Positions 14,625 through 27,749 of a DNA stretch of 31,060 bases are shown piece after piece. Source of the DNA: a virus; the IMG/VR virus record IMGVR_UViG_3300037010_001404, positions 1-31,060 of that record, one strand, 5' to 3'. Below the pieces are notes generated by a model. The model did no database searches and was not told the origin of the DNA. It saw only the letters and a list, made by a program, of their open reading frames with translations. The position numbers and the translations under genes were made by a program. Positions within the stretch are counted from its first letter, which is position 1. Every line of letters starts with the position of its first letter.

Positions 14625-17600
14625 TTACTCCCAATAACTTTGTGCTGTAATTGTTGTTGAAACTGGTGCATCTACAATACCAGTAATTCGTTTAACTGTT
14701 TCTATTTGGGCTGTGGTTTGTTGTTTTGTTGATACAACCCCATTACCCTGTTCAATAATAATTTTATTTAGTGTTTCACTTTTTGGGGTTAAAACACTTG
14801 TTCCGTTTGTTTGGATAATAAATTCAGACCAATTTACAGTAATTTTTAACGAGTGCAATGATGTCTTAAAGTAAACCGACTCTAAAACTTGCAACATTGT
14901 TAATACTTCTGGCTTTATTGTAGAAACAACGGAACCATCATTCAGTGTTTGTGTAAATTGTAATGCATTAGGTAATAATGAAACATTTAAGTTAACATTT
15001 TTACCAACTTGATTAAACGATAATTTAGAAATGTCAACAAATTCATTTAATTTTAAAGATAAAAATGTCTGAATAAACTGAATAACATTAGGTGTTATCG
15101 TGGTATTTGTCTTTGAGGTAAACAATGATTGGAATAAAGACAATGGAACAATAGTAACACTTTGATTCACTAATGGGTTAAACCCTGACTGAGATAATCC
15201 AAGAGTATTAATGGAGATAATCTTTTGTGAAAGTACCTGTGTTGGATAAAGTTGTTGTAAGTAAGTAACCAATGCAGGTGTAATAACCGAAACTGTATTA
15301 CCACCCAATCCATTTTGTGTAAATCCAATGTATGAACTGTTGATAAGAGTCTGTTTGTTTATCGTTGCAGCATTCAAAGATTGTATCAAGTTTAATACAC
15401 TAGGTTTTAATGTAAAATTAACTAATGGACTTATCGATGATTGTGTAAACATCAATAAAGAAGCAGCAACATAATCTGCTGTTCCAAGATTAATACCAAG
15501 TAATGTTTGTATCTGTGAAATAACATTAGGATTAACAATCAAGTTTGCTTTAGTATCATTCTGCGTTTGTACAAATGAAAGTAGGGTAGATAACACTCCC
15601 TCATTAATTTGGTTATTAAACATACTTTGAATAAACGCTGTAACTCCAGGTTTAAGAGCAAAGTTTGTATTTGGTCCTATAAGACTCTGAATAAATGTCT
15701 CCACATTAGGTTTAATAACACTAGTTGGGGTACAATCTAAAACTGATTGGATAAACGCTGTAACTGCAGGTTTAAGAGCAAAGTTTGAGTTTGGTTGTGC
15801 AAAACTCTGAACAAAAGACTCAACATTAGGGTTAATTGTGCTAATAACTGTATCAGTCTGAGTTGTCTGTGTAAATGTTGTTAAACCAGGAGACACATTA
15901 CTGATTACATTTGAATTAAGGAATGTTTGGACAAAATTCTTTAAAACAATTGGAATGAACTCTTGTTGTTTAACATAAACAGTGTTTAATGTTTGAACAA
16001 AAGACAATAATGCTGCTGCTATTTGAACATTTGTATTTGCTGAATAAAGTTGTTGCGTTAAAGTCAATAAACCGATTGCTACCTGTTCATTATAATTTAC
16101 AGCAGTACTATTCATCACCTGTGTAAATGTTTTAACAGATAAACCAATCAAAGACTGAATAGTTTGTGTGTTTAATGTCTGTGTAAAAGAGGTCAATGTT
16201 GGAAGAATTACACTATTACTATTTGCTGCTAATCCTGTCTGAATAAAAGATAGAATTGTATTAATAATAACTGAACGTTGTGTTGGACTATTTAAAGACT
16301 GTGTAAATGCTAACAAATCAGCAAGAACAGTCACACCTGACGATGTAAAGACAACATTTGGTGATAAGAGGGACTGAATGTAAGAAACAACATCAGGAAA
16401 AATCGTACTCGTACCCTGTGCAGAATTAAGAACTTGACTAAAAGCACTTAAATTAGTTTGAATAATAGATTGTGGTGTTTGTGGTAATAATGTTTGTGTG
16501 AAAGAATTGGTAGCCACACTAATTGCTGGTATAGTTGTTTTTATACTAATACCATCAACAAACGGAATGTATCTAATTGTTCTTCCCACACTATCTAAAT
16601 AAACTGTTTGAGTACCAGACGAGTAACTTATCCAAATACCGTAATCACTACTGTTAATTTGAGAAGGAGTAATAGAGGGAAAGTTATCTCCACCACCAAA
16701 AGTGGATGCTTCATTTAAAATAATTGTTTGTGTTGAAGGAGATGAAGAAAAGGAGTTAGGTAGAGAATTAAAACTGAAACGTTGTATCGTTCCATTATAA
16801 AAAATTTCACCCATACTGAATTGTAAATTGGAATCAACAACACTCACATACCCTGTTAAATCAACACTTGTATAAAAGGGGGTAGATGCTGCTGGAATTG
16901 CTGCTAAAAAGTTTGTTAAATACAAATCTTTAGAAACATCCCCCGCTAGTACAACAGAACCGTATGTTGTATCTGTATTACCTAAAACATCATTTGGGTT
17001 AGTCCAATCTGCTGTCCCTCCTTCAATAGTATTTCCTGAAGCAACAGAGGAAGGAAAATTTTCACTTGTCTCTTGATAAGTTTCAGTGGTATAAATGACT
17101 CTTATTCTAACAGAATCAACATAAATAGAGCAAGAAGACGTATCAGCACGGAAATACAAATCACAACCAAACGTAGACGCCATAATTTCCGAACCGGAAA
17201 AAGTTGTTCCAAATCCAGGACCCCCAACTATAAATGTACTATAAGAAGTAGTTATTTGATGGTCATCTACTTGGGGAACCCAAACACTGAACGATGTTTC
17301 ATCTCTTTTGATTCCATAATAAGCATAAATTGGTGCTGACCCTGTATAATAAGCACTTACTTCAAGTTCTACACCAATAATAGTTACACCATTAGGTATT
17401 CCGTTAATTCCGTAACCATACAAACATAAATCATAACTATTATTTGATGGAGATAAAACAACAGAACTGTATGTATTGTTTGGTTGACCCAAACTTTTAC
17501 TTGCTGATGTCCAGTTTACAGCCCCATCTGATCTCGTTGTCACGGAAGAAGGAGCAAACCAAGGCGTTCGCTGTAAACCAGAAGTAAAGTCTCCATTTTG

Positions 17601-17888
17601 TGTAAAGGTAAGATTGGAAACAGAAATTATCGATGGAATTGTCAACCCAAACATACTTTGTGTAAAGGTAAGATTGGAAACAGAAATTATCGATGGAGTT
17701 GTCCCCCCGAACATACTTTGTGCAAAGGTAAGATTGGAAACAGAAATTATTGGTGGAGTTACCCACCCAAACATACTTTGTGCAACAGACAAACCTGCAC
17801 CAGTTGTTGTTCTTTTTAATACCGTTTGAGACACCAAACCACGAGTATTTGAACTCGTAGAAAGTGGAAACCTATGAAGGTAGCCCAT
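14625..17888 (-). CDS. Giant 20-residue-repeat tail fibre-like protein
   Basis: This 1087-residue protein has three regions. The N-terminal ~90 residues hold four copies of a 20-residue unit of form LTFTQSMFGxTxPSIISVSN. The middle (~90-450) contains two copies of a beta-sandwich module with W-T-N-P, N-x-T-Y-x-S-V-V, an L-Y-L/L-C-L strand and an I-P-x-x-x-x-I strand. The C-terminal ~600 residues are about 27 diverged copies of the same 20-22-residue unit, each carrying F/L/Y-x-Q-S/T near its start and often I-x-P-x-V near its end. Regular 20-residue coils suggest a beta-solenoid stalk. It lies in the tail-fibre part of the late series, so a host-binding or side-fibre role is likely. AAGGTGG precedes the ATG. 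I know no named family for it. Confidence 0.75.
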   Translation of the reverse strand: MGYLHRFPLSTSSNTRGLVSQTVLKRTTTGAGLSVAQSMFGWVTPPIISVSNLTFAQSMFGGTTPSIISVSNLTFTQSMFGLTIPSIISVSNLTFTQNGDFTSGLQRTPWFAPSSVTTRSDGAVNWTSASKSLGQPNNTYSSVVLSPSNNSYDLCLYGYGINGIPNGVTIIGVELEVSAYYTGSAPIYAYYGIKRDETSFSVWVPQVDDHQITTSYSTFIVGGPGFGTTFSGSEIMASTFGCDLYFRADTSSCSIYVDSVRIRVIYTTETYQETSENFPSSVASGNTIEGGTADWTNPNDVLGNTDTTYGSVVLAGDVSKDLYLTNFLAAIPAASTPFYTSVDLTGYVSVVDSNLQFSMGEIFYNGTIQRFSFNSLPNSFSSSPSTQTIILNEASTFGGGDNFPSITPSQINSSDYGIWISYSSGTQTVYLDSVGRTIRYIPFVDGISIKTTIPAISVATNSFTQTLLPQTPQSIIQTNLSAFSQVLNSAQGTSTIFPDVVSYIQSLLSPNVVFTSSGVTVLADLLAFTQSLNSPTQRSVIINTILSFIQTGLAANSNSVILPTLTSFTQTLNTQTIQSLIGLSVKTFTQVMNSTAVNYNEQVAIGLLTLTQQLYSANTNVQIAAALLSFVQTLNTVYVKQQEFIPIVLKNFVQTFLNSNVISNVSPGLTTFTQTTQTDTVISTINPNVESFVQSFAQPNSNFALKPAVTAFIQSVLDCTPTSVIKPNVETFIQSLIGPNTNFALKPGVTAFIQSMFNNQINEGVLSTLLSFVQTQNDTKANLIVNPNVISQIQTLLGINLGTADYVAASLLMFTQSSISPLVNFTLKPSVLNLIQSLNAATINKQTLINSSYIGFTQNGLGGNTVSVITPALVTYLQQLYPTQVLSQKIISINTLGLSQSGFNPLVNQSVTIVPLSLFQSLFTSKTNTTITPNVIQFIQTFLSLKLNEFVDISKLSFNQVGKNVNLNVSLLPNALQFTQTLNDGSVVSTIKPEVLTMLQVLESVYFKTSLHSLKITVNWSEFIIQTNGTSVLTPKSETLNKIIIEQGNGVVSTKQQTTAQIETVKRITGIVDAPVSTTITAQSYWE
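17597..17776. repeat. Three near-identical 60-bp tandem repeats in fibre gene
   Basis: Units at 17597-17656, 17657-17716 and 17717-17776 differ at only a few bases; 17777 begins a decayed fourth. Each encodes one 20-residue F-x-Q unit. The high nucleotide identity marks recent in-frame duplication, unlike the strongly diverged repeats later in the gene. Confidence 0.95.
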
Positions 17889-19924: not shown

Positions 19925-19932
19925 TATTTATG
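19925..19932 (-). promoter_or_regulatory. Late-promoter-like motif before baseplate-like gene
   Basis: The minus strand reads CATAAATA, one base from TATAAATA, overlapping the end of the preceding gene. Confidence 0.28.
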
Positions 19933-21226
19933 AGAGAAGGGCTGAACCACTTATACTTTGGGAACTACTATTCACACTAACAGTACATGTTGGGGTACCA
20001 GATGCTTGTTCCTTCATCACTTCCGTATAAAGATGGTATGTATGTCCTGGAATTATCAACCCTCTGAATCCTGATGTCATCATTAAATCAAGATTTGTTA
20101 TGTTTGATGTTTGACCATACTGCGTTGTTCCAAATGTTGAAAAAATTAAATACATGTTCGTTCCTGCAGGGACATCTGCTGATAAAGTATCGTCATACAA
20201 TCTTTGTCGCACCCATACATTTAATTGGTTACTACCTGATGAAGAAACAGATGAAATTGTTGTTATAACGTATCTTGATGATGTTACAATTTCATTATTT
20301 ACAGCAGTAAAATAAATGTATCCTGGAGAATACCATTGGTTGTAGTTTGTAATTGTAGTCAACGAACTACTAGAACCTATTGAAGTACTCCCACTTGTAA
20401 CAGAACCAACAGTAGTATTTGCTGATGTAATTTTATCTGCTACAAATGAAACACCACCACCAATACCAGTCATACCAAAAACTTCCGTACTTCCACCAAT
20501 AACAACAGTTTGGTCTACATTATTCGTTGTGAATGCTGGGAACTGATAGTTTGAATCTGAATTCCCAGGAGTGTCAATAAAACCATACAATCTAGAATTT
20601 GTTACATCATTTGTTTTTCCTTTTAAAGTAAATTCTATTCCAGTAATTGTTGCTGTATCTGGAATGGCTGAAAAGTCACTCAAAGAAAACACTAAATTAT
20701 TACTGTCTGTTGTTGTAACAACAGCATACGAAGAATCATCAACACGAGCATTATCAGGGTTAGTCCAGTTTGTTCCATTATAAGTTCCATTTACAACTGC
20801 TGATGTAAAAGCAGAAGGACTTCCAATAGAAGTTCCATCATACCAAATTTTATAAAGAACTGTTTGTACAGAAGTTGTTACAGATGCAGTAGAGTATTCA
20901 TACACCAGTAACTTTAATTTTTTAAAAGATTCACCAGTAAGAGCAGTTTGGAATGGTCCAGTAACACCGTATTGGTTAATAATTCGAACCCAAAAATAGT
21001 ATGTATTATTTGTTGAGAGGCTTGTTGGTGAATAATGATTACTTTCTATAGTAGCCATCAAAGATGCTGTCTTAGGGTCATTGTCGGTAGTACTATACCA
21101 AACTTCGTATTTGTCTGTAAGTACAGATGAAGGATTCCATTTTAAAGATGCTGAATTTATCCCACCTGTAACAGTGAGACCTGTAATAACAGGTGGTTGT
21201 ATAACTGTGAACGATAAAGTAGCCAT
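19928..21226 (-). CDS. FN3-containing tail tip or fibre protein
   Basis: This 432-residue protein starts with a fibronectin type III domain (about residues 12-100; L-K-W-N-P-S, Y-E-V-W-Y-S-T, Y-Y-F-W-V-R). Next comes a beta-sandwich module with W-T-N-P-D-N, D-S-S-Y-A-V-V, L-S-D-F and I-P-D-T-A-T-I-T-G-I-E-F, the same module that occurs twice in the 1087-residue fibre protein. The end is Ser/Thr-rich beta structure. It follows gpJ and a small protein in the late series, so it is probably part of the tail tip or a fibre that binds the host surface. Confidence 0.75.
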   Translation of the reverse strand: MATLSFTVIQPPVITGLTVTGGINSASLKWNPSSVLTDKYEVWYSTTDNDPKTASLMATIESNHYSPTSLSTNNTYYFWVRIINQYGVTGPFQTALTGESFKKLKLLVYEYSTASVTTSVQTVLYKIWYDGTSIGSPSAFTSAVVNGTYNGTNWTNPDNARVDDSSYAVVTTTDSNNLVFSLSDFSAIPDTATITGIEFTLKGKTNDVTNSRLYGFIDTPGNSDSNYQFPAFTTNNVDQTVVIGGSTEVFGMTGIGGGVSFVADKITSANTTVGSVTSGSTSIGSSSSLTTITNYNQWYSPGYIYFTAVNNEIVTSSRYVITTISSVSSSGSNQLNVWVRQRLYDDTLSADVPAGTNMYLIFSTFGTTQYGQTSNITNLDLMMTSGFRGLIIPGHTYHLYTEVMKEQASGTPTCTVSVNSSSQSISGSALLS

Positions 21227-21687: not shown

Positions 21688-24600
21688 TTACCTCAAAATA
21701 GTTTGGATGTATGCTGTCTTATTTACTGCTCTTACTTGAAGAGTGAAAGCGGTACCGGTTGTGTTTGTATACGACCATGACCCAGCGTTTACTATCACTT
21801 GTAATTTATACTGGGTATTTTTTAAAAGATTAACAGTTCCAAATAAAATGTTTTGTCCATTCCCACCAACAATGTTAATGGATAAGTTTGCTCCAGTATC
21901 AATAATGCCCAAATTACTTATGTACACACTTTTTAAATTTACTGCAGCAGCCCCACTATACGACGGACTAGTGTATACCACACTGGAATCACTTGTTTTG
22001 ACTATTTGCACTCTGTATGTTGGTACAAACTGCGCTGAAACCGATAATTTTGATGTTCCTGAAATTATTCCCAAATTACTTATGTAAACATCACTTGATG
22101 AATAAACATCATAAGTACAAAACGCGTGAAAGTATGTAAAGAAACTTGTTTCAGATGTTGTTGGGTTTGCTGTATTAAAAACAAAATTAAACACTTCTGT
22201 ATCATTATAACTATAAGTATTACTTCCATTTGATAAAGTTGCTGAACTTATCACAACTGGTGTATTATCTACATACGCTTTTACATCACTTATAGAACCA
22301 TTTTTTAAATTTAAAGTATCAATAGTAGCAGTTCCAATCTTTGCTCCAGAAACTGCTAAATCAGCAATCTTTGCTGTATCAACCGCAAGGTTTGCTATTG
22401 CAGCATTATTAATAGATAAATTTTGATAATCAGCAGTTGCGGTTCCAATAGTAGTTCCAACAACACCAGCGGTAGAACTTGATGGATAGTATCCACTGAA
22501 ATTTCCACTTGTGTCTACACTTCTTACCCAATAATACCTTGTAGTTCCAGTAGATAAACCAGAATGTACAAATGTGTTATCACCTGTTATTGTTATTAAA
22601 GTCGCTGCTGTTCTGTCATTTGTAGCAGATGCCCAAACTTCTGTTCCTCTTAAATCTACTGCGGTAGACTTTGTCCATGATAACCAATTATTTTTAAATG
22701 AACTTGTAACAGTTAAAGCACTTGGGTCAGATGGTAATGTAGTATCTCCAGGAGTAGTAGATGTAATTTCAGATGTATAACCTGAACCCACATCAGCATT
22801 TCTTGCCTGAACTTGGACTCCGTATTGGTTACCAACCTTTAAACCACTCCAAGTTTGAGTTACAGAAGATGTAATAATAGAACTATACTGACCACTTCCT
22901 GTAATGTCTCGTATACGAACCTCATAACTTGTTGTATTAGTTGTTTGAGAATTCCAAGTTGCAACTATTCTACCTGTTTGTGAACCATTTGGTGCTTGGT
23001 CTAAGAATGCTGTTAAGGTCAATCCTGTTGGTACCGCTGGTGCTGTAACTCCACCCAACGCATAACTTGACACAGCAACTCCACTTGTATAATTTAGACC
23101 CGTTTTACCGAATGTATCATAAATTGCTGCTTTAACATAATAACTTCCGGTTACCGCTTGTGGTATAGTAATTCCATCAGAACCTGTGTAAACTGCTCCG
23201 TCATAAACAATGTTAGATGTGTCTGGTGTAAACCCAGCAGTAGTTCCTTGATAGATTATTAAACCTTGTTGGTCTGCTACTGGACTTGAAACAGTAATGT
23301 TAACTTTATACTGCATCGTACCACTTGTTGCTGTAAATGTTGATGGAATAGCGGGAGCAGAATTTGTGAATACTTGATTAATAAAATTAGTTGATGCTTG
23401 GTTATAAGCATTCAATGTATAAACTTCTACCCTTAACGCACGGAAAGGACCTCCATCTCTTACATTTTCAGACATTGTATAGTCCATAGATGTAACTAAC
23501 TTACCAACTGTTTCAGAGTGTATTAATGTTGAGGTAGCATTATCATAAATTTTAACCAAATACCCACCAACTGTGGAACCAACAATGTTATCATTTAACG
23601 AATTAGGTGTCCACCCAAAGAATAAATCTGGACCATACCATTCATTACCACTTCCATGTCCACTGGAAATTGTTAAAGCAGTAGGTGGATAAAGTGAATT
23701 TGTTCCATTATACCCAACAGTAAGAGTCTGTACTGTTGGTGGAGACTGAACTCCTTTCATGTTATACGCAATAACACTGATAAAATAAGTACCTTCTGAG
23801 GCACCGTCAATGTAAAACTCGTTATTATGAACTGTTTCTTGTGTTGACAAAGGACCACTGTTTCGTGAATAGCTAACTTTATACCCCATAATACTTGGAG
23901 TTGTTGGTTCAGTCCAAGAAACTCTTAAAGAAGTTAAAGGACCAAGAACATTATCAACTCGTGCTTCAAGAGTTCCTGTTATACCCGAAACTGGACCACA
24001 AACATCAGAAGCAACAGAACTATAAACTAAACTTGGGTTAACTAATGAACTCTCTACACGGTCATACTTACCAGGGTCATGAAAAACAGCAGTAATACTG
24101 AAAATACCCTTTTCTGATTCTTTGATTCCAATAACTTTAAATTGGCGGGCACTGACATCAGCAGCAGATGTAATCATCCACTCTCTACCCTTTAAGTTAG
24201 TAGCGCTATTAGGTAGGGCTGTATTGAGGTTAAATGTTGTGTATGTTCCAGCCGCGTTTGTAATTGTGCGCTCTACAAGTGTTGACCCATCTAAATCCAA
24301 TAATGTGAGTGTATAAGTTGTAGCAGAATTTAAAACAACAGGGGCATCAGTTATTACTTGAGTTGTGGTTCCGTCAACTATTCTACCAGCAAATACCTCA
24401 CTAACGTAATCATTATCCATAACATAGATAACATCACCAGGAATAAGGTCTGCTTGGTTAAAACTTGTCTCATAAGAAACAGTTTCAAGTTGATTCATTT
24501 CTGTATCAAGGTACCATTTTGCAACACGTCGGGCTTGACCCTCACTAGTACATCCAAACGCAGCAACTTCCGCTAAATTATAACCATAACGAGTTATACC

Positions 24601-26367
24601 GGTCGCTGTGTCTTCTGAAACTATTTTTGGAAGAAATCGGTCATTCTTATCATTATAAGTCACATTCACAGCAGTATGTCTTGCTAAAATACCAGAACTT
24701 GTGTATGTAAACATTCCATCTTTGACATTACTATTTGTCACAATCTTTACTGGTGTACTTGGTCTATCTTGAACCAATGTAATAATACCACCAGGAATAA
24801 CAACTGCTCTCATAACAGAAGCAATTGCTTGAATAAGTTTCCAACCTTCTTCTCGTGTTGAAATTACATTATTAAAAGTGAATCTTGGTTCTGTTCCACC
24901 GCTACCATCATTAACCAATTGGTCATTATACTGGGATGCTGAATAAAATGACCAAATGTCAATTGTACTAACATCAATAAATGACCCCATACCGTATTTG
25001 GTATCTGTTAATAAGTCATAAAGAATCCACGCTGGGTTATCTGTCCAACCAGTAGTAAATGTACCATTCCATGAACCAGTATAAGCACGAGTAATAGGGT
25101 TATAATTATTTGGTATTTGAACTATCATACCTTTAACATCATAACTTCTAACTGGAATTTGGTTACCAACAGAACGTGCATCAAGCGCAACAGCAGCATA
25201 AGCAACACCATTGTACGCAAGTTTAATTTCTTGAACTTCTGTTATTTGATAAACATCTGTTCTATTCACAACAGTAGACAATGTTGGGTCAGCAGTTATT
25301 CTACGAATTCTAACATCCCAAGTTGTCGCACCTGTTGGACGACTAACCTTATAAGATGTATCATAAGTTGTTGTGGCTTTACCTGTAATTGATGGTTTAA
25401 TAATCTCTGTCCATGTACCACTAGTTGGTTTAGTGTCAATAGCGAACTGAACTGAACCACCATGCATGTCTCCAGTAGATGTATCTTGTGTGGCTAATCC
25501 ATTCGGGAGTCGTATTTGAATAATTGCAGCATCTGTGGTTGCTTGGAGTGAACGAGTAACAGGTATTGTTGTTGTAATTTGTGTATCAACTCCAATAACA
25601 CTTTCAACTCCATTAAATCCTGTTACATAATCTTGCGAAGGTATACCTGTACGGAAGTCACCCTGTTTAATAGAAAAGTTATAAGATAAATCTGAGTTTT
25701 GAATAGGGGTATCATTAAAGAATACAGATTGGAAGTCACTAGTAGTCAAACCCCAAATTGGACCCTCACTAATAACTTCCATAACACGAGCAATTTGTGT
25801 TGAACGTAATGTATTGGCATCTTCTTGTGCAGGACGTGAACTTCCACCACTTTTTCCACCTCCGCCGTTGTGAACTCTTACATTTTGTACAATGTATGTG
25901 TGTTGTGGAATAACATTTAAGTTATAGGTGAACTCATCATCGTTTATTTCACGAAATTCAATAGCAGAGATTGTTTGTAATTCACCCAAATCATCAACAA
26001 AGATGTCCCCTATAACAAAGTCTTTGGCTTGTTTAAAAGGTGTATCAGTACCATTTTCAAAATAGATAGCGTGGTTACCAGTTACTTCTAATGTTTTATT
26101 ATCACCAAATGTGAATGTATAGATTCCAGAGTTATTCTCTTGTTTACTATGTTTAAATGTTTCAACAATAACACCGTGGTCAAGATTGCCTTCTGTATCA
26201 AAAGCAATAACAAGGTCACCTTTTTGTAAACGGTGTATTGGCTTCCAACCATGAGATGTGAATACAAGTTGATTCTGTGTAAAACAGCCACCACCGCCAC
26301 CTCCGGAACCTTCTACTGGACCTTCGAATACAAATTCATCAAAATACTTTTTATTATTATTTTCCAT
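21688..26367 (-). CDS. J: Tail tip host-specificity protein (lambda gpJ-like) with N-terminal Hint domain
   Basis: This 1559-residue protein has a short acidic N-terminal peptide (1-27) ending in a Gly run, then a Hint domain (28-167). A second Gly run follows, and then typical gpJ sequence beginning near R-S-T-Q-I-A-R-V-M-E-V-I-S-E-G-P-I-W-G-L (about 188-207), where lambda J has a like segment near its own start. The J core runs to about residue 780 and includes A-W-I-L-Y-D-L-L-T-D-T-K-Y-G and P-G-D-V-I-Y-V. Several FN3 domains follow (about 785 onward). A helical stretch with N-L-A-V-D-T-A-K-I-A-D-L-A-V repeats lies near the C-terminus, followed by a beta-rich end. It would form the trimeric tip that binds the host receptor. 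Without Hint it is still longer than lambda J (1132). Confidence 0.92.
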   Translation of the reverse strand: MENNNKKYFDEFVFEGPVEGSGGGGGGCFTQNQLVFTSHGWKPIHRLQKGDLVIAFDTEGNLDHGVIVETFKHSKQENNSGIYTFTFGDNKTLEVTGNHAIYFENGTDTPFKQAKDFVIGDIFVDDLGELQTISAIEFREINDDEFTYNLNVIPQHTYIVQNVRVHNGGGGKSGGSSRPAQEDANTLRSTQIARVMEVISEGPIWGLTTSDFQSVFFNDTPIQNSDLSYNFSIKQGDFRTGIPSQDYVTGFNGVESVIGVDTQITTTIPVTRSLQATTDAAIIQIRLPNGLATQDTSTGDMHGGSVQFAIDTKPTSGTWTEIIKPSITGKATTTYDTSYKVSRPTGATTWDVRIRRITADPTLSTVVNRTDVYQITEVQEIKLAYNGVAYAAVALDARSVGNQIPVRSYDVKGMIVQIPNNYNPITRAYTGSWNGTFTTGWTDNPAWILYDLLTDTKYGMGSFIDVSTIDIWSFYSASQYNDQLVNDGSGGTEPRFTFNNVISTREEGWKLIQAIASVMRAVVIPGGIITLVQDRPSTPVKIVTNSNVKDGMFTYTSSGILARHTAVNVTYNDKNDRFLPKIVSEDTATGITRYGYNLAEVAAFGCTSEGQARRVAKWYLDTEMNQLETVSYETSFNQADLIPGDVIYVMDNDYVSEVFAGRIVDGTTTQVITDAPVVLNSATTYTLTLLDLDGSTLVERTITNAAGTYTTFNLNTALPNSATNLKGREWMITSAADVSARQFKVIGIKESEKGIFSITAVFHDPGKYDRVESSLVNPSLVYSSVASDVCGPVSGITGTLEARVDNVLGPLTSLRVSWTEPTTPSIMGYKVSYSRNSGPLSTQETVHNNEFYIDGASEGTYFISVIAYNMKGVQSPPTVQTLTVGYNGTNSLYPPTALTISSGHGSGNEWYGPDLFFGWTPNSLNDNIVGSTVGGYLVKIYDNATSTLIHSETVGKLVTSMDYTMSENVRDGGPFRALRVEVYTLNAYNQASTNFINQVFTNSAPAIPSTFTATSGTMQYKVNITVSSPVADQQGLIIYQGTTAGFTPDTSNIVYDGAVYTGSDGITIPQAVTGSYYVKAAIYDTFGKTGLNYTSGVAVSSYALGGVTAPAVPTGLTLTAFLDQAPNGSQTGRIVATWNSQTTNTTSYEVRIRDITGSGQYSSIITSSVTQTWSGLKVGNQYGVQVQARNADVGSGYTSEITSTTPGDTTLPSDPSALTVTSSFKNNWLSWTKSTAVDLRGTEVWASATNDRTAATLITITGDNTFVHSGLSTGTTRYYWVRSVDTSGNFSGYYPSSSTAGVVGTTIGTATADYQNLSINNAAIANLAVDTAKIADLAVSGAKIGTATIDTLNLKNGSISDVKAYVDNTPVVISSATLSNGSNTYSYNDTEVFNFVFNTANPTTSETSFFTYFHAFCTYDVYSSSDVYISNLGIISGTSKLSVSAQFVPTYRVQIVKTSDSSVVYTSPSYSGAAAVNLKSVYISNLGIIDTGANLSINIVGGNGQNILFGTVNLLKNTQYKLQVIVNAGSWSYTNTTGTAFTLQVRAVNKTAYIQTILR
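25867..26286 (-). other. Hint (intein-like, BIL-type) domain inside gpJ
   Basis: This 140-residue insert (residues 28-167) begins with Cys28 after six glycines and ends His166-Asn167 before Gly168. It contains the expected splicing blocks: block A C-F-T-Q-N-Q-L-V, G-D-L-V-I-A-F-D (50-57), block B T-G-N-H with His99, and block F Y-N-L-N-V-I-P-Q-H-T-Y...V-R-V-H-N. There is no homing endonuclease. The residue after Asn167 is Gly, not Cys, Ser or Thr, so a standard splicing end is absent, as in bacterial intein-like domains. Cleavage at one or both ends, or aminolysis-type joining, is therefore the likely chemistry; this is inference from the family. Confidence 0.9.
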
Positions 26368-27015
26368 TTAGTTCTTCGCCTGTAATTTAGTTTTTGGTTT
26401 TGCTACAGTACCATCAGCAGGAACTCCACCTGCATCTGCTGTAGGAAGTTCTGCAGTTTCGAGACCAGAACTTATAACAACTGAACCAGTACGGAATCTA
26501 CCATAAACTAATGGAATAGGTCCACCTTGGGCTACTGTATTAACAGCACCATTGAAAATAAATGAGGGGTTTTGGGCCACATTTGAGGATTGTGTAGATT
26601 TTGGTGTGGGAGTTAACATTGCGGCAACACCTGATAAAGCCATAGAAGCACCCATGTTTACTAACCATGATTGGTGAAAATAAAGACCAGCAACAATTAA
26701 TACAACACCAACAATAACTCTAAGAACACCACTTGACCCTTCAACATACGGAATAATGTGAATGTCTTTCTTTGATGTACCAAGTAAAAGTTCATCTTCT
26801 CCAATGTCATGTGGTTTTTCAACATCAAGGTCACCTAATACAACATGAAATCTACCTTTTCTGATAGCGTGCTCAAATTTATCACCTAAATTAGCAATAA
26901 GAGCTCGAGTTGCCATCGCTGTATTTGTAACATTTAATTCAAAAGTATCACCAAACTCTTTTAAAGAGCCATGTAAGTGAATTGTTTTAAGTTGTGTAGG
27001 TTGTAATTGATTCAT
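26368..27015 (-). CDS. I: Tail assembly protein (lambda gpI-like)
   Basis: This 215-residue protein lies between gpK and gpJ, as in lambda. A ubiquitin-like N-terminal region (T-I-H-L-H-G-S-L-K-E-F-G) is followed by a hydrophobic segment with two likely helices (about 97-135). The C-terminus matches the shared end: N-P-S-F-I-F-N-G-A-V-N-T-V-A-Q-G-G-P-I-P-L-V-Y-G-R, then T-G-S-V-V-I-S-S-G-L. It is needed for tail tip assembly with J. It adjoins gpJ (TAAATG). Confidence 0.88.
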   Translation of the reverse strand: MNQLQPTQLKTIHLHGSLKEFGDTFELNVTNTAMATRALIANLGDKFEHAIRKGRFHVVLGDLDVEKPHDIGEDELLLGTSKKDIHIIPYVEGSSGVLRVIVGVVLIVAGLYFHQSWLVNMGASMALSGVAAMLTPTPKSTQSSNVAQNPSFIFNGAVNTVAQGGPIPLVYGRFRTGSVVISSGLETAELPTADAGGVPADGTVAKPKTKLQAKN

Positions 27016-27017
27016 TA

Positions 27018-27749
27018 TTAATCAAGCCTCGTATTGTGTAAAAAATAGGCCACATGCTTGGACCAACGGTCGAGTGTTTCTATACAAGAGAGTTTATTAT
27101 ACTGATGGTGCATAAATTTGTTATCCCCTAAATAAATTCCAGCGTGGTCAATGAAATCTCTACTCATTACACGAAAGAAGATTAAATCACCAACATTTGG
27201 AGTATTTATGGGTAGAAATCCTTCGGATGAATAGTGTCTCTCATAAATGTTTTTATCATAATCTTTCCAATTGGCAGGTCTTGGATAAACACCCAACTTT
27301 AGGTTGTGTTCCAATTTATAATAGTCCCTAACCAGTGTATAACAATCGTACACATTATGAATAAAAGGTCTTTCTAGAAGAGGTGCAGGTGTGTCAAGTC
27401 CATACCAAAGAATGGAACTAACATTCTCTCCTTCTGTACTAACAATACCCCAAGGAATGTCTGTATCCATTTGACCTTGTAAGTCATTCATAGATGGTGT
27501 GCGTGGGTCATAATGTCGACCTGACTTATCTACACCAATAGGCTTTGGATGACTGTGAATTATTGCTTGGAGTTTACCTGTCTTGACAGCATCAATGTAT
27601 TCTTTGGAAGAGATTTTAAAATCTTCTTCGGGATTTTCCGCAATGTTGTTCGCTGGAATGAAATTATTCTCAACAACAAAACCGGCCGCTTCTTTTGGGA
27701 ATTCATCCAATACAAATTTTGTGAATTCATAATAATTATTAATGTCCAT
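27018..27749 (-). CDS. K: Tail tip peptidase-hydrolase (lambda gpK-like)
   Basis: This 243-residue protein has two domains. First is a JAB/MPN metalloprotease with a complete JAMM motif: Glu20, H65-S-H67-P, then S86-x-x-D89. Second is an NlpC/P60 domain with Cys136 (Y-D-C-Y), His202 (D-H-A-G-I-Y-L-G) and a third polar residue near His214-His215. Both active sites look intact. In lambda-like phages gpK acts in tail tip assembly and may cut peptidoglycan during DNA entry. Because no endolysin is recognised in the genome, this is the only clear peptidoglycan-acting enzyme here. Order with M, L, I and J matches lambda. Confidence 0.92.
   Translation of the reverse strand: MDINNYYEFTKFVLDEFPKEAAGFVVENNFIPANNIAENPEEDFKISSKEYIDAVKTGKLQAIIHSHPKPIGVDKSGRHYDPRTPSMNDLQGQMDTDIPWGIVSTEGENVSSILWYGLDTPAPLLERPFIHNVYDCYTLVRDYYKLEHNLKLGVYPRPANWKDYDKNIYERHYSSEGFLPINTPNVGDLIFFRVMSRDFIDHAGIYLGDNKFMHHQYNKLSCIETLDRWSKHVAYFLHNTRLD

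Follow-up and report, generated by a model that had tools for sequence, protein, structure and literature searches.

Ordinary inteins need Cys, Ser or Thr at the +1 position. Class 1 mini-inteins of phage proteins (e.g. gp41-1) have such a residue together with the Hint fold, Cys1, T-x-x-H and His-Asn. A-type BILs are Hint folds of ~130–155 amino acids without endonuclease, bearing Cys1, T-x-x-H and a C-terminal His-Asn and no +1 nucleophile, and B-type BILs are characterized by absence of the C-terminal His-Asn. BILs without a +1 nucleophile yield mainly cleavage products (PMC7664689), and A-type BILs are unable to ligate according to a review (PMC7765530); for the A-type BIL of C. thermocellum (2lwy), ligation without nucleophilic side chains has been reported, as cited in PMC7664689. 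Described BILs sit in hypervariable regions of non-conserved bacterial proteins (PMC7765530). In Tetrahymena, BIL2 of BUBL1 (6y75, 6tmm) belongs to a eukaryotic polyubiquitin-like locus, is flanked by ubiquitin-like domains in the same protein and joins one of them, ubl4, to lysine through an isopeptide bond (PMC8616854). Pretoxin HINT (PF07591) stands directly before a C-terminal toxin domain.

Here we describe a Hint domain in gpJ, a conserved, receptor-binding tail-tip protein of phages. It is real, well-defined, recurrent and undescribed as far as the searched literature goes: no description of a Hint or BIL in gpJ or gpI was found in that literature, where subscription journals are thinly covered.

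A Hint domain in the Gly-rich linker of gpJ

The window analyzed here is a whole virus record of 31,060 bases (IMGVR_UViG_3300037010_001404), whose minus strand carries a lambda-type tail-tip block in the order tape measure-M-L-K-I-J. The 1559-residue ORF at 21688–26367 (−) (P0001) is certainly gpJ, judging from its sequence: the lambda TipJ model matches residues 171–883 (E = 4e-111), PHROG 31 'central tail fiber J' matches with E = 1e-217, and both the gene order and all conserved gpJ domains are those of lambda. The conserved body (residues 171–1559 and stop, 21688–25857 (−)) contains PF24801, PF13550 and fn3. Because conserved gpJ starts at about residue 169, from where it aligns to lambda gpJ from residue 2 onward, the 27-residue leader and the Hint constitute an N-terminal extension; lambda gpJ lacks the Hint and nearly all of the leader. 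No in-frame start codon occurs between residues 127 and 196, so that translation must pass through the Hint before it reaches the conserved N-terminus, and an internal start bypassing the Hint was ruled out.

The adjacent gene encodes a gpI homologue without Hint (tail assembly/plug protein, 26368–27015 (−), phrog_32 E = 1e-49), and beyond it lies a gpK homologue (27018–27749 (−)) with NlpC/P60 (PF00877) and a JAMM-like motif, H65SH67...S..D, which was read from the sequence, the Prok-JAB Pfam match being marginal only. Elsewhere in the window, a 1087-aa ORF downstream of the tail genes (14625–17888 (−)) has no Pfam or PHROG match, and a 432-aa ORF two genes downstream of gpJ (19928–21226 (−)) weakly matches a gpJ second Ig-like domain.

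The first-pass annotation of this DNA had read from the letters alone a complete 140-residue Hint/BIL domain in a Gly-rich linker near the start of gpJ, and its coordinates proved exact. The N-extein consists of the leader MENNNKKYFDEFVFEGPVEGS and six Gly (residues 1–27, 26287–26367 (−)), and the BIL-like Hint covers residues 28–167 (25867–26286 (−)) in the context GSGGGGGG-C28FTQ...TGNH99...PQH156TYIVQNVRVH166N167-GGGGKSGG. Pfam recognizes it (PF07591/PF01079: PT-HINT E = 7.9e-10, Hint E = 3.6e-8, both above curated cut-offs), the pretoxin model being the best. Structure prediction, which the annotation had proposed as a check, agreed: in an AF2 model built with 40 homologues, residues 28–167 form an all-beta Hint fold, mostly at pLDDT 85–97. 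The top Foldseek match of this model was 2lwy (E = 2.5e-11, TM 0.89 by target length), VIA-align gave Z = 20.0 to BIL2 (6y75) and 19.8 to 2lwy, and a profile of the phage Hints likewise ranked 2lwy first (7e-22) and Tetrahymena BUBL1 BIL2 second (4e-15). Chance similarity to Hint was rejected on these values (E 8e-10, fold Z 20).

All catalytic residues named in that annotation are present, and they are invariant in 40 aligned gpJ Hints, which are ~28–44% identical to the window Hint except for one close relative (L002, 95%). They are Cys28, the Hint Cys1 and predicted nucleophile of an N-to-S acyl shift (26284–26286 (−)), T96 and H99 of the block B motif T96-G-N-H99 (26071–26082 (−)), and His166-Asn167, the C-terminal dyad for a predicted Asn cyclization (25867–25872 (−)). 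F29, H73 and V165 are also invariant, and the block F-like His156 (25900–25902 (−)) is present in 38 of the 40, while the median column is 47% conserved. The invariance of V165-H166-N167 is partly by design, since the search pattern behind most of the Hints fixes VHN; scans by the N-terminal motif or by the gpJ body likewise returned His-Asn exclusively.

Translation confirmed Gly168 as the +1 residue, at the start of the C-extein linker (Gly168–Gly171-Lys172, 25852–25866 (−)), so something besides standard class 1 splicing is needed, as the annotation had pointed out. In scans that left the C-terminus free, linker-inserted gpJ Hints had Gly or Lys at +1. When Cys, Ser, Thr, Arg or Trp was required at +1 in a Gly context, the scan matched a single gpJ, and its residue is Arg rather than Cys, Ser or Thr.

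Among the described systems, the A-type BIL of C. thermocellum resembles the gpJ Hint in size, predicted fold, Cys1, T-x-x-H, C-terminal His-Asn and the absence of both +1 Cys/Ser/Thr and endonuclease. The resemblance to class 1 mini-inteins ends at the +1 residue and at the site, as the gpJ Hint is inserted not in an active site but in a flexible Gly linker; B-type BILs differ by the C-terminal His-Asn, which the gpJ Hint has. Unlike pretoxin HINT, the gpJ Hint lies near the N-terminus and is followed by conserved gpJ domains, with no toxin domain after it. BUBL1 BIL2 is alike in predicted fold, sequence profile and nonstandard joining (putative in gpJ), whereas no ubiquitin-like domain precedes or flanks the Hint in the window gpJ. 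Since its location in the Gly linker of a conserved tail-tip protein, where it is retained across lineages, differs from the described distribution of BILs, and its activity is putative, we file it as a BIL-like variant, not as a plain A-type BIL, and consider that, in a host protein of a kind new for BILs, it probably functions as A-type BILs do.

Distribution and inheritance of the gpJ Hint

Scanning viral contigs for VHNGGGG codons gave at least 120 stretches; among the matches listed, 67 were Hint-like (55 distinct), most of them in gpJ and most of the others in a gpI-like protein. Over all scans about 50–55 distinct gpJ Hints were collected, and dozens of other phages, mostly uncultured, share the arrangement. 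In two overlapping samples picked by gpJ alone, a Hint was found in 2/80 and 4/80, so a few percent of gpJs near the window gpJ carry one. A tblastn search of 50,697 phage records with four Hint-gpJ queries and the bare window Hint returned no Hint-bearing gpJ, only Hint-less gpJ or unrelated Hints. Two candidates were rejected: the join over an 'HNH endonuclease' in Escherichia phage atuna concerns a neighboring gene and contains no Hint, and MT836326 encodes an RHS-like protein.

Among bacterial genomes, a pattern scan picked out two of Leptolyngbya with Hint-gpJ genes, including that of the isolate PCC 7375, a possible laboratory system. Leptolyngbya sp. PCC 7375 (L254, G001) has, besides the Hint-gpJ gene, a second genomic site whose match is confined to the portion of gpJ downstream of the Hint. 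The same scan found a Hint of a Magnetococcales MAG in a protein other than gpJ.

On the gpJ tree, Hint-bearing proteins group together (9 changes, against ~36 when shuffled), and the supported group that contains the window gpJ has 13 members with a Hint and one without, the window's own copy (L001) counted. Distances of Hint and gpJ are correlated (Mantel r = 0.68, 0 of 2000 permutations), and the gpJ clades reappear in the Hint tree. Clustering, correlation and recovered clades together indicate that the Hint is an old resident retained vertically with gpJ. Its GC content (0.33) is close to that of the window (0.36). A near-identical gpJ without Hint was not found, the nearest Hint-less gpJ in the clade being L131/L265.

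Fate of the leader and the Gly-rich flanks

The first-pass annotation preferred trimming of residues 1–27 from gpJ and suggested comparing gpJs with and without the insert; this comparison turned out to weigh against trimming. Hint-less gpJs follow the pattern M-leader-(L/I)IxGAGGGGKGGGG...EAPDSLRS and Hint-bearing ones M-leader-IxGSGGG-[Hint]-GGGGKGG...EAPNTLRS, the hydrophobic-x-Gly-[Ser/Ala]-Gly motif that ends the leader before the Gly linker being found in 45/47 Hint-bearing and 76/81 Hint-less proteins. When the linker of a Hint-less gpJ, LIIGAGGGGKGGGG, is set against LRGAGGGGGGG-[Hint]-KGGGKGG of another gpJ (L294), the flanks of the latter join into the Hint-less linker. In one Hint-bearing clade (that of L010), the leader had the lowest pN/pS (0.185), below the Hint (0.289) and the gpJ body (0.359), and is thus under the strongest purifying selection, which also acts on the Hint. 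Moreover, the gpJs of L064, L221, L224 and L231 hold two tandem Hints with a Gly-rich spacer between them, and each pair falls in one supported group on the Hint tree.

With a probability of about one half, we propose that the gpJ Hint acts as a mini-intein of BIL-like type, devoid of endonuclease, which removes itself from the Gly-rich linker and splices the two flanks together without a +1 nucleophile. Cys28, aided by T96 and H99, would attack the Gly27-Cys28 bond to form a thioester, and Asn167, aided by His166, would cyclize and free the alpha-amine of Gly168. This unhindered amine (that of Lys in some relatives) would then attack the thioester directly, in place of a +1 side-chain nucleophile, and the predicted product, leader-GSGGGGGG-GGGGKSGG-gpJ, has the architecture of a Hint-less gpJ. 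We thus infer that the Hint is active, that both bonds are broken and that the ends are joined again instead of being lost. Rejoining is ranked first because the rejoined flanks give the Hint-less protein, and because conservation of the leader and the presence of a second Hint are harder to explain by cutting alone; the invariant catalytic positions, the vertical retention of the Hint and the reported ligation by its nearest relative, 2lwy, also favor it. Counting against rejoining are the published behavior of BILs, which mainly cleave, and the nearly leaderless lambda gpJ, according to which gpJ can work without a leader. Purifying selection on the leader, seen in one clade, could also be explained by a peptide that is released or transferred, and the leader/linker comparison is one between homologues rather than between near-identical gpJs that differ by the insert.

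Alternatively, the Hint might merely cut at one or both ends, by thioester hydrolysis and Asn cyclization, so that the leader is lost and mature gpJ starts from Gly168. For such a cut, the first-pass annotation further suggested a timing tied to tip assembly, as a putative control over tail maturation. Consistent with such an outcome, BILs mainly cleaved in vitro, and the predicted product, GGGGKSGGSSR..., resembles the N-terminus of lambda gpJ, MGKGSSKG. We rank it second, as less likely than rejoining, since the conserved leader motif is common to Hint-less gpJ and a second tandem Hint would be redundant.

The thioester of the leader could instead be transferred to a different amine, namely a lysine in gpJ or in a neighboring tail protein, resulting in a branched or cross-linked tip, which the JAMM of gpK could reverse. 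BUBL1 BIL2, the second nearest profile match, forms isopeptide bonds, and Lys occurs at +5 or +6 after the Hint in 33 of the 40 aligned gpJ Hints. This Lys is not Hint-specific, as the linker of Hint-less gpJ has it too, and we hold such a transfer, to a hypothetical acceptor, to be improbable, even with the JAMM-like motif kept in the window gpK and in most of the Hint-gpI loci described below.

Given the putative status of its activity, the Hint might also be inactive, or stay in the virion in a structural role, since gpJ could accommodate a loop that lies in the Gly linker, outside the ring. We give this little credence in view of the purifying selection on the Hint and the invariance of Cys1, T-x-x-H and His-Asn against a median position that is conserved at less than half.

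If the gpJ Hint is active, it would represent a natural family of splicing domains that apparently dispenses with the +1 nucleophile, and one long kept in an essential phage tail protein rather than in variable bacterial proteins. Efficient joining of poly-Gly flanks without a nucleophile would then become testable, which bears on protein-ligation tools.

Hints in gpI and in other phage proteins

In a second phage group, 19 ORFs match a gpI-Hint motif, some of them being overlapping loci of one contig (L013:2303–3619 (+) and 18 others, including L003, L007, L014, L046, L056, L060, L078, L090, L103, L105, L106 and L223). In these gpI proteins the Hint interrupts a Gly linker that connects the ubiquitin-like N-terminus to the plug part. 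The gpI of L013 matches the tail assembly family (phrog_32) on both sides of its Hint, and the Hint-less gpI of the window aligns to both of these sides, with the break at '...PYVEGSSG' versus 'PVLEGAGGGGG-Cys'. A JAMM-like motif ORF is present in 18 of the 19 gpI-Hint loci.

The linker of gpI divides its ubiquitin-like N-terminus from the C-terminal domain, and the JAB domain of gpK has been proposed to release the ubiquitin-like domain (Iyer et al. 2006, PMC1779556); the lambda tail-tip model covers gpI residues 135–223 alone, as the plug (PMC10721106). These observations fit cutting without rejoining, by which the equivalent insertion in gpI would part the ubiquitin-like part from the plug. 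On the other hand, Hints also occur deep in a gpJ-like protein (residues ~580–850, outside the Gly linker) of gpI-Hint group phages (L003, L013, L078, L090, L106 and L248), where cutting alone would split the protein in two. These deep Hints have Arg, Met or Gly at +1 and are sister to the gpI Hints on the Hint tree (98, starred), which suggests spread within a genome. If the Hints are active, the question of the purpose of tail-tip self-processing would be reopened for gpI and gpJ as well as for the JAMM-motif gpK.

As in BUBL1, a ubiquitin-like domain stands directly upstream of the Hint in the gpI group. The order ubiquitin-like part, Gly linker and BIL may recall the BUBL genes of ciliates, a lead that would make it their parallel in a prokaryotic virus. 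Extending this analogy, the tail-tip Hints could form an enzyme-free conjugation system, in which a BIL behind the gpJ leader or the gpI ubiquitin-like domain passes the upstream part to a tail-tip lysine and the gpK JAMM trims or reverses the bond; it would correspond in phages to the BUBL loci of ciliates. We assign this a low likelihood.

Hints were also observed in proteins other than gpJ and gpI. A large non-gpJ protein of L236 (also L237, L247 and L249) has consecutive Hints with Gly/Cys-rich flanks and Cys at +1 (VHN-CGGGG), and very Gly-rich proteins of L093, L076 and L113, neither gpJ nor gpI, have a Hint with HN-GGGGGG flanks. In L070, a Hint with GGGG before it and GGGGK after it belongs to a protein of ~935 aa that is unrecognized by gpJ comparison and reads like another tail-type protein. 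Ruminococcus phage NatCom_3870 (L123) has three separate Hint ORFs close together, in unannotated proteins with Ser, Ala and Ala after His-Asn.
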